NCBI RefSeq assembly: GCF_003626755.1
Contig: NZ_RBCJ01000001.1
Location: 558,001-622,000 of the forward strand
Length of the DNA: 64,000 bases
Source: Ulvibacterium marinum
Lineage (GTDB): Bacteria > Bacteroidota > Bacteroidia > Flavobacteriales > Flavobacteriaceae
Direction of reading: 5' to 3'
Below, in pieces: positions 2,457 through 4,439 of the stretch. The notes under the pieces were generated by a model. The model worked only from the letters and a program-made list of their open reading frames with translations, was not told the origin of the DNA and ran no database searches. Both the position numbers and the translations under genes were made by a program. Within the stretch, counting starts at the first letter, position 1. Every line of letters begins with the position of its first letter.

Positions 2457-2960
2457 TCACTCGAAATTTCGCAAGGATAGCGAAGAGTAGGACATAATTG
2501 GGTTCTGCCTGATACCCTCGATTTTAAAATACTTGATTTCACCGTCTTCAAGATATGTCAAAACGGCTTGTGTCCTCGATATTTTAAAAGGCAACAAGGA
2601 TTCGTTAAAAATGCCTTCATTGCCATTAGGCGAGCTGTCCCTAATACTTGTATTTGTTTTATCTAAAATTCCCATAGGGTACTCGGCTATGGCCACCGCA
2701 CCAATTTTCCGAAGCTCAATTTTCACATTGATTGCTTTACCCCGGTGATACAGCTTTTGCAGAGTAGCTCTTCTTGTATTTAAACTTCGAATGGGTATTA
2801 TTACATCATACCCTATTTCCTCTGGATTCTCTTCTATAATCCATCTCTGGGCATAAACCTGCCCTAATCGAAAGGGCAATTCGGTCTTTAACTCCTTTTT
2901 GGAAGCACATCCAAATAGGATAAATACAACCGTAATCAGACCACAGATTGGACGTTTCAT
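2457..2960 (-). CDS. Small lipoprotein of unknown function
   Basis: The start is set at the ATG at 2960 (MKRPICGLITVVFILFGCASKK), which puts a signal peptide II with lipobox LFGC at residues 15-18, so the mature protein begins at the Cys and is membrane anchored. An in-frame upstream start at 2999 would place the signal sequence too far in. The mature part of about 150 aa is rich in beta-prone segments and contains no motif I recognise. It stands alone, with an inverted repeat at 2983-3007 just upstream of the start and the flippase gene starting 82 bp downstream. Confidence 0.7.
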   Translation of the reverse strand: MKRPICGLITVVFILFGCASKKELKTELPFRLGQVYAQRWIIEENPEEIGYDVIIPIRSLNTRRATLQKLYHRGKAINVKIELRKIGAVAIAEYPMGILDKTNTSIRDSSPNGNEGIFNESLLPFKISRTQAVLTYLEDGEIKYFKIEGIRQNPIMSYSSLSLRNFE

Positions 2961-2982
2961 AGGTACATTGGCAATCGACCTA

Positions 2983-3007
2983 CATATTGATTTTAACAAT
3001 CAATATG
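2983..3007. promoter_or_regulatory. Perfect 10-bp inverted repeat upstream of the small lipoprotein gene
   Basis: CATATTGATT and AATCAATATG are exact reverse complements separated by 5 nt (TTAAC). It sits 22 bp upstream of the lipoprotein ATG, where an operator would be expected. It lacks a following T-run on either strand, so a terminator is less likely. Confidence 0.45.
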
Positions 3008-3032
3008 CGGACATGCCATAAAAAAGGTTACA

Positions 3033-3071
3033 AAAAAGGGAAACCTCACAAATATAGGGTTTCCTATTTTT
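3033..3071 (-). terminator. Candidate Rho-independent terminator of the atp transcription unit
   Basis: GGAAACC (3039-3045) and GGTTTCC (3058-3064) form a 7-bp stem. On the minus strand the stem is followed by a T-rich tract, and on the plus strand by TATTTTTTT, so it could act in both directions. It lies after the 52-bp repeats and would place them in the 3' untranslated part of the atp mRNA. Confidence 0.55.
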
Positions 3072-3102
3072 TTGAGTTCTTTATACGTAGAAAATGTGAA
3101 TC

Positions 3103-3600
3103 GCTTCGCCCAATTATTGGGTGATTCCGCACTGATGCATTTGGCTCCGCTAACGCTTCGCCTAATTGTCGGGTGATTCCGCACTGATGCATTTGGCTCC
3201 GCTAACGCTTCGCCTAATTGTCGGGTGATTCCGCACTGATGCATTTGGCTCCGCTAACGCTTCGCCTAATTGTCGGGTGATTCCGCACTGATGCATTTGG
3301 CTCCGCTAACGCTTCGCCTAATTGTCGGGTGATTCCGCACTGATGCATTTGGCTCCGCTAACGCTTCGCCTAATTGTCGGGTGATTCCGCACTGATGCAT
3401 TTGGCTCCGCTAACGCTTCGCCTAATTGTCGGGTGATTCCGCACAGAGGTAATTTGGCTCCGCTAACGCTTCGCCCAATTGTCGGGTGCTTCCGCACTGA
3501 TGCATTTGGCTCCGCTAACGCTTCGCCTAATTGTCGGGTGCTTCCGCACTGATGCATTTGGCTCCGCTAACGCTTCGCCTAATTGTTGAGTGCTTCCGCA
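3103..3600 (-). repeat. Tandem array of about ten 52-bp units growing out of the atpG 3' end
   Basis: Unit starts (GCTTCGCC on the plus strand) are at 3103, 3155, 3207, 3259, 3311, 3363, 3415, 3468, 3520 and 3572, a period of 52 bp with one 53-bp variant at 3415-3467. The last, incomplete unit (3572-3600) contains the final codons and stop of atpG. On the minus strand each unit holds a GTGCGGAAGCAC or GTGCGGAATCAC segment, then ACAATTAG matching the atpG end, then GGCGAAGCGTTAGCGGAGCC. Units next to atpG keep the atpG-like base (GAAGCAC) and distal units carry GAATCAC. There are no spacers, so it is not a CRISPR. The frames open across it are by-products of the period. Confidence 0.95.
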
Positions 3601-4439
3601 CCTCCAACAATTTCCAAAATTTCGTTGGTGATTGCAGCCTGTCTGGCCTTATTGTAAGTAAGTTTTAATTGGTCACGTAATTCGGTAGCATTATCCGTGG
3701 CCTTATGCATAGCCGTCATACGTGCACCGTGTTCACTGGCAAAGGAATCCCGAATCGCTTTGTATAATTGCGTTTTCAAGGATTTAGGAATCAGCTCTTC
3801 CACGATTTCCTCCTTGGAAGGCTCAAAAATGTAATCTGTAACGGATGTTTCGTCTTCCTCGGCGGGGACAATAGGCAAAAACTGCTCCGTCATTACAATC
3901 TGAGTGGCAGCATTCTTGAATTTATTATAGACCAATTCAACCCTATCATAAGAACCGCTGGTAAAGTGCTCCATGAGTTCTTCCGCAATAAGGGTTACGC
4001 TGTCAAAAGTCAATGCATCGTAAACCTCACTATGGTTGGCCATTATATTGAACTTTTTTCGCAAGATATCATTGCCCTTCTTTCCAATGGCCATGAAATC
4101 TACCTGCTTGTCCCCATACGTTCCTTGCAATAAGGAAACGCACTGCTTGATAATATTGGAATTAAAAGCGCCACAGAGTCCACGATTGGAGGTAATGGCT
4201 ACCACCAATATTTTTTGGACCTCCCTATTATCTGAGAATTTCCCTCCCGCATCAGCATCCAGGCTTGCACTCAAACTTTGCAGAAGTTCCGTAAGCTTAT
4301 CCGCATAAGGCCGCATTTGGGTAATAGCATCCTGTGCTTTCTTCAACTTGGCCGCCGATACCATTTTCATGGCACTGGTAATCTGCATGGTTGAAGATAC
4401 CGTTGCTATTCTACTGCGTATTTCCTTTAAGTTCGCCAT
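3579..4439 (-). CDS. atpG: ATP synthase F1 subunit gamma
   Basis: The 286-aa central stalk subunit of F1 couples rotation of the c-ring to catalysis in the alpha/beta hexamer. The N-terminal helix MANLKEIRSRIATVSSTMQITSAMKMVSAAKLKKAQ and the C-terminal helix ending in RQAAITNEILEIVGGAEAL are the two ends of the family's coiled coil, and the length is normal. It is the last gene of the operon, 87 bp after atpA. Its final codons (GGAEALNN and TAG) lie inside the first unit of the 52-bp tandem repeat array, which continues downstream. Confidence 0.98.
   Translation of the reverse strand: MANLKEIRSRIATVSSTMQITSAMKMVSAAKLKKAQDAITQMRPYADKLTELLQSLSASLDADAGGKFSDNREVQKILVVAITSNRGLCGAFNSNIIKQCVSLLQGTYGDKQVDFMAIGKKGNDILRKKFNIMANHSEVYDALTFDSVTLIAEELMEHFTSGSYDRVELVYNKFKNAATQIVMTEQFLPIVPAEEDETSVTDYIFEPSKEEIVEELIPKSLKTQLYKAIRDSFASEHGARMTAMHKATDNATELRDQLKLTYNKARQAAITNEILEIVGGAEALNN

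Follow-up and report, generated by a model that had tools for sequence, protein, structure and literature searches.

The window, i.e. the whole stretch of 64,000 nucleotides of Ulvibacterium marinum DNA that was analysed, carries the gene of the ATP synthase gamma subunit, atpG, followed by a tandem repeat with a period of 52 bp at 3102-3601 for which TRF gave 9.6 copies, 96% matches and a score of 907. Unit-by-unit reading resolved the repeat into nine complete units, eight of 52 bp and one of 53 bp, and a partial tenth that consists of a tail copy and GGCGAAGCG. Since atpG lies on the minus strand at 3579-4439, the first repeat copy, which reads GCG GAA GCA CTC AAC AAT TAG, is the own end of the gene and the array extends from the gene toward lower coordinates. 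The features are as follows.

3579-4439, minus strand: atpG, ATP synthase gamma subunit, open reading frame (PF00231, E 1.6e-101)
within 3579-4439, minus strand: last codons and stop of atpG, which are the first tail copy (D1)
3548-3599, minus strand: unit 1, coding tail GCGGAAGCACTCAACAATTAG, hairpin GGC..GCC, AAAT and spacer
3496-3547, minus strand: unit 2, tail copy with CCCGAC, non-coding
3443-3495, minus strand: unit 3, 53 bp, with AATTGG and a deviating spacer
3131-3442, minus strand: units 4-9, six mutually identical 52-bp copies of the GAATCAC variant
3102-3130, minus strand: partial unit 10, tail copy and first half of the hairpin, then unique flank
3033-3065, minus strand: terminator-like inverted repeat, GGAAACC..GGTTTCC followed by Ts, past the array (by eye)

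The sequence-only reading had described a 52-bp array of about nine further units behind atpG, with GAAGCAC near the gene and GAATCAC in the distal units. This description holds: tail copies 1-3 contain GAAGCAC and tail copies 4-10 GAATCAC. Tail copies 2-9 carry CCCGAC, as compared to CTCAAC in atpG itself. The copy number was taken from one assembly and may be miscounted there. A CRISPR-like or interspersed repeat was ruled out, since the array is a single locus in the 5.9-Mb genome and has no foreign spacers. A terminator had also been placed beyond the array; the inverted repeat at approximately 3033-3065 agrees with this by eye, but it was not listed by the automatic scan, which covered loops of 3-8 only, because its loop is too long. 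A small putative lipoprotein gene, for which Pfam gave no match, follows at 2457-2999 on the minus strand and, by eye, also lies after atpG in several relatives. An array in a genome named as a Maribacter MAG (locus L034, genome G062) shares with the window the CCCGAC of the inner tail copies and the CTCAAC of the gene; it ends with an atpG tail of different coding.

The array in the window is not a private oddity: units built alike follow atpG in at least 54 of the 397 sampled Flavobacteriaceae genomes. A covariance model (R1, tail and hairpin, 46 positions) matched 100 of the 397 at E ≤ 0.01. The atpG end was inspected in 68 of these, the remaining 32 all having matches of E 3.8e-4 or worse, and 54 of the 68 carried one or more additional tail copies, in part decayed; the other 14 had a hairpin only, were too decayed or had a plain atpG end. 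Named carriers include Arenibacter palladensis, Maribacter halichondriae, Flagellimonas pacifica, Allomuricauda abyssi, Flavivirga algicola and Hanstruepera ponticola. With this architecture in dozens of genomes, a chance repeat or assembly noise was ruled out. A class-wide survey of 395 genomes gave two weak matches outside the family, both atpG tails without a hairpin, and a match within the family (G651) that was due to chance and not at atpG. An order-wide survey of 395 genomes at E ≤ 1e-4 gave one array outside the Flavobacteriaceae (G038); both surveys used stricter filters, by which weak matches are lost. A comparison of copy number among relatives was a check proposed along with the sequence-only reading, and 10, 8 and 3 tail copies were counted in the three sampled species of the window's genus. 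None of the open-licence PMC papers that literature searches listed, judged by titles and the starts of abstracts, describes repeats at the atpG end.

For a description of the unit, 169 distinct atpG ends were collected, a sample enriched for model matches. A loose criterion for a tail copy (≤ 8/21 mismatches) let 10 of 167 control stretches pass by chance and, therefore, a stricter one was used. It left 62 loci with a confident tail copy which, together with 23 more (22 from the genus of genome G423 and one other), made 85 loci with 80 distinct atpG ends and 73 distinct first-unit hairpins. As read from these sequences, the unit consists of D, the 3' end of atpG with about six codons and the stop, a small stem-loop, and I, an imperfect inverted copy of D; arrays have the form D-I-D-I-..-D. 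The stem between D and I is mostly RRC..GYY with a G..A closure. An outer stem of at least 3 bp was found in 64 of the 73 hairpins, compared with a mean of 2.8 and a maximum of 9 in 200 shuffles and a mean of 39.7 and a maximum of 47 in 500 swaps of the 3' halves. GGC/GCC (24) and GAC/GTC (23) were the most frequent first-unit stems, followed by AGC/GCT (5), AAC/GTT (3) and others; the closure was G..A in 57 of the 64 stemmed hairpins and the loops were short (GAA, GTA, GTAA, GTTA, GAGA, GATA, GAAA, also AAA). In the 14-sequence alignment from which the covariance model was made, 98.1% of the cells pair versus 93.0% after shuffling, and the covariation score was 0.183 versus 0.092 (0/500 shuffles as high in both cases); two pairs were changed on both sides, which is not above shuffles (124/500 reach it). 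Behind AAAT, the spacer complements the tail codons of its own host, with a mean duplex energy of -4.73 kcal/mol for own and -3.72 kcal/mol for swapped partners (z -5.5, 0/2000 as low, 76 distinct); in empty loci this complementarity is absent (z -0.35). Stem-loop and complementary spacer together therefore make the unit a quasi-palindrome. The inverted arm is only slightly more complementary to the coding tail (D1) than to the displaced one (D2) (48 loci, p 0.044; p 0.11 where D1 and D2 differ most).

The whole units also fold better than expected by chance. Compared with dinucleotide shuffles, the mean z was -1.90 in 76 filled ends (36 below -2) and -0.35 in 148 other atpG ends (16 below -2; p 1.7e-13), of which at least one, L179, does hold an array. 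The stop is TAG in 62 of 80 filled ends versus 46 of the 148 others (p 2e-11, relatedness ignored). RNA folding had been suggested as a check on the array, and its outcome was divided: pooled over all species, the units fold better than chance, but the single unit of the window folds weakly (RNA z -1.40; DNA z 0.22, no better than chance) and a 601-nt region of the window no better than shuffles (z -1.07, 3/20 as good).

As far as searched, the units are restricted to the atpG end. A hairpin pattern matched 14 of 299 family genomes, its reversed control one genome. In 13 of the 14 the match was the atpG array; eight of these were looked at directly and five (G000, G001, G062, G153, G256) coincide with R1 matches. 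The fourteenth, G198, has an unrelated palindrome. This long palindrome (L183, G198:C1:1983719), GAATGAGAT..GACGAAGCTTGCGAAGTC..ATCTCATTC, has a GAA/GAA internal loop of the same kind as in the atpG hairpins. Other genes were searched in 864 kb of three array-bearing genomes, the window included (696 open reading frames of at least 110 amino acids). At ≤ 6 mismatches, three of the 696 including atpG had a tail match, with 2.6 expected from swapped controls, and atpG was the only one with a tail copy at ≤ 5 mismatches. A hairpin after the stop was likewise found at atpG only, a second regex match having no stem by eye. Thus, copies of the unit elsewhere, with atpG as only one insertion site among others, were looked for and not found, neither in the genome of the window nor at other genes in the 864 kb.

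How the unit comes and goes was followed in the genus of G423, which includes Flagellimonas and Allomuricauda, as seen from atpG ends identical to those of named loci. Of its 71 genomes, 70 yielded atpG, and by regex and eye the unit is present in 23 of the 70 species and absent in 47. On an atpG tree from which the tail was excluded, presence and absence require 18 changes, at least ten of them forced by well-supported branches; shuffled labels gave a mean of 19.5-19.6 with 120-127 of 500 as low. Presence is therefore scattered over the genus tree about like shuffled labels, and units turn over at the species scale. This distribution bears on a functional RNA, in which the hairpins behind the stop would stabilise the 3' end of the atp operon mRNA or take part in its processing, their pairing being kept by selection. 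The covarying stems, the better fold of the filled ends and the position on the sense strand between atpG and the terminator-like repeat point in this direction, but 47 of 70 species of the genus live without the unit, its presence is scattered, the window unit folds weakly and the array has no Rfam match (window 2900-3800: one chance match, outside the array and on the other strand, E 0.13). We regard a functional RNA as an unlikely explanation, which would also have to account for the many species that do without units.

Filled and empty sister species were then compared in 16 chosen pairs, 15 in the genus of G423 and one in another genus (L268 and L293 each provided the filled locus in two comparisons, and L267 and L307 each the empty one in two). 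Eight of the 16 comparisons, with the seven filled loci L270, L274, L293, L301, L320, L330 and L336, differed by a single clean gap of 50-52 bp, located at GCNGARGC in the end of atpG; one unit of about 51 bp is thus present in one species and absent in its sister. L314 differed from its empty partner by 101 bp, i.e. two units; the remaining seven comparisons (L268 twice, L286, L298, L296, L322, L324) align less cleanly. Divergence upstream of the tail was flat over all 16; counted in nt from the stop, it was 10% at 21-51, 8% at 51-201, 9% at 201-401 and 8% at 401-801, versus 16% in the tail. The sample comprises one genome per species, and since loci and pairs are mutually related, the p values come out too strong. 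Gain and loss would leave equally clean boundaries; polarisation by protein sequence is available for the clade with the LNG* end only.

In this clade the replacement of a gene end is seen most clearly. The empty locus L304 ends with AEALNG*, the filled locus L301 ends with AEALNN* and a unit, and downstream of that unit there follows an AEALNG* end with a flank that agrees in 49 of 50 bases with that of L304 after the gap. The change from LNG* to LNN* separates L301 and L293 from the empty loci L302, L304 and L308. Comparison of displaced and coding tail in 50 single-unit loci revealed 118 synonymous and 42 non-synonymous differences, where duplication followed by drift should give about one third synonymous (our own estimate, from 0.20); the excess has p 1.7e-25 with relatedness ignored. 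EAL..stop can still be read in 34 of the 50 displaced tails. This synonymous excess shows that many displaced tails were coding until a short time ago and that the coding tail ahead of them has a different history; the second tail behind a single unit is thus a recently replaced gene end. When all 62 loci including the long arrays were taken, the last copies had 131:109 synonymous to non-synonymous differences, a few of them admitted by a criterion that requires E-A-L, and the inner copies 51:106 (Fisher 1.5e-5). The latter ratio agrees with drift.

The sequence-only reading had stated that the repeat contains the atpG tail, and the arrays of other species indeed carry the tail of their own host, even where AtpG ends differently: ALAQ* in the proximal part of L219, ALAG* in L243, ALNG* in L249 and ALSN* in L241. 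L130 has the AtpG end AMNN* and array copies of that end; L226 has the same AtpG end, but array copies of the common kind. In L180 the unit core is flanked on either side by the same host tail. Arrays are thus also rewritten from the gene, which speaks against a purely foreign origin. Further, in a family-wide comparison of 27 pairs (≥ 80% identity), the tail of the nearest empty species resembled the first copy more in 13 and the last copy more in five, which argues against a simple rule that the last copy is the original; the pairs are only 80-90% identical and include old arrays, many of them long with decayed last copies. These observations, together with the drift in the inner copies and the more gene-like proximal units of the window, would suit outward growth by tandem duplication, in which each species copies the atpG end that it has itself and the non-coding copies drift and are occasionally homogenised. 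We nevertheless consider this origin unlikely: it is at odds with the synonymous excess in displaced tails, with the replacement of LNG* by LNN* and with the similar hairpin cores in different genera, and it leaves hairpin and inverted arm unexplained. Outward growth from the gene, as proposed from the sequence alone, is therefore half right. The gene tail is the raw material, but sisters differ by one clean unit in half of the comparisons, the differences in displaced tails are mainly synonymous and presence is scattered, so that species also gain and lose units, which can take the place of the gene end.

Units are alike within a genome and different between genomes. Their identity was 0.93 where atpG is more than 90% identical and decreased to 0.83 at 85-90%, 0.69 at 80-85% and 0.66 at 75-80%. 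This decrease with atpG divergence fits an exchange limited by homology; it also fits vertical inheritance with frequent loss. In the latter case, however, turnover at the species scale should long since have left the family without units, had these not been regained. Transfer between species is thus suggested by the pattern, and recombination between tails is the leading mechanism that we infer. We see about an even chance that the array is made of atpG-anchored palindromic tail units which spread by recombination and were amplified in the window to ten tail copies. The first unit would plausibly have arisen by a micro tandem-inversion-duplication of the gene end (D-I-D). Homologous recombination or single-strand annealing would then carry units from one related species to another, since the two D copies of a D-I-D fragment allow it to pair with a plain end of atpG. 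Such pairing would leave one extra unit, give atpG a new end and push the old end downstream; loss would be the reverse. Slippage or unequal crossing-over between D copies, assisted by the hairpin, may multiply or remove units, as in the window, and template switching within the palindrome may maintain the complementarity of the arms. Among the observations that weigh against this explanation, half of the 15 comparisons within the genus and one outside it do not align as one clean segment, and in the clean cases the foreign tracts are below 100 bp, which is short for classical recombination.

The fixed site and length of the insertion could also point to an enzyme. The unit would then be a gene-less, site-specific mobile element of about 51 bp that homes to the end of atpG, likened to elements that integrate in tRNA genes: its hairpin would be recognised, perhaps as a folded single strand, by a trans-acting recombinase or an HUH-type enzyme and inserted at GCNGARGC, where it supplies the last codons and the stop and displaces the native end. 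A repeatable site with a sharp upstream boundary in the clean comparisons, the conserved stem with its G..A closure and short loops, the occurrence at atpG only, as far as searched, and the displaced gene tails all agree with this, and if it were true an extremely small element would have colonised at least one in seven sampled Flavobacteriaceae species at this site. However, long-range jumps were not seen, the best unit identity between loci with atpG less than 82% identical being 0.91, and a Y1/REP-type transposase (PF01797) is not associated, as it was found in 5 of 23 filled and 8 of 47 empty genomes. Of the 23 filled genomes of the genus, 18 had no PF01797 match, though a divergent enzyme could escape this profile. 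A phage or plasmid carrier was rejected: no phage record matches the array, the two weak plasmid matches are a plasmid-borne atpG coding end and a chance match, and 17 viral contigs that match two short patterns have neither an atpG tail nor a hairpin partner around. In sum, we judge an enzyme-mobilised element to be rather unlikely.

In these bacteria a tiny palindromic unit repeatedly exchanges the C-terminal end of a conserved core enzyme, and the old end stays beside it as a fossil. The region after atpG in Flavobacteriaceae can hold displaced gene ends. The many filled and empty sister species, and an event that is readable in synonymous codons, make origin, movement and amplification of a short palindrome testable here. 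The array might serve as a fast marker in these marine bacteria.

The atpG units are filed under no existing family. There are integrative elements whose attachment site is the 3' end of a tRNA or tmRNA gene, which they restore. Like these, the atpG unit places a replacement end upstream and displaces the native end downstream at a fixed site; unlike them, it has about 51 bp, is gene-less, has no linked integrase that was seen and occurs in tandem arrays. By eye, no gene was seen within the units, which have approximately 40-60 bp, and the genes that follow the array vary from genus to genus; cassette genes as in integron attC arrays were not found between the copies. Fungal mitochondrial elements replace the C-terminus of atp6 and encode a homing endonuclease; in both cases the gene receives a foreign end and its old one stays downstream, but the atpG unit is non-coding and bacterial. 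Tandem inversion duplications and quasi-palindrome template switching give copies in direct-inverted-direct order with arms that are kept complementary. The atpG units share both features, but on a 20-bp scale, at one gene end, recurrently over the family and apparently transferred; a search of open-licence PMC papers for these processes gave no match. The closest repeats described are REP and BIME sequences, small palindromic stem-loops beside genes that are often grouped or tandem, for which mobilisation has been proposed, with RAYT (Y1) transposases (PMC2817692, PMC3733652). The atpG units are small imperfect palindromic stem-loops, too, but REP, REPIN and BIME sequences are interspersed in more than 100 copies, whereas atpG units lie at one locus. 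They also lack the GTAG or CGTC tag at the base of the stem, the tetranucleotide that closes with the stop being TTAG in 65, TTAA in 18 and ATAA in 2 of 85 loci. Unlike REP, they include the last codons and stop of the gene itself, and in the genus tested they show no association with a Y1 transposase. With ordinary VNTRs or minisatellites they have in common the tandem arrangement, the identical distal copies and a copy number that differs between species, as in the three species of the window's genus (one genome each), but a unit architecture that is kept over many genera at the same gene end sets them apart.

Arrays can also be heterogeneous within a locus. L240 (G272) and L226 (G332) are mosaics of two unlike hairpin types, GAAAATT..AATTTTTC and the GRC..GYC kind. 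The array of L069 (G413) has 12 tail copies at ≤ 4/18 mismatches, in which units of 53 and 43 bp with different hairpins are mixed.
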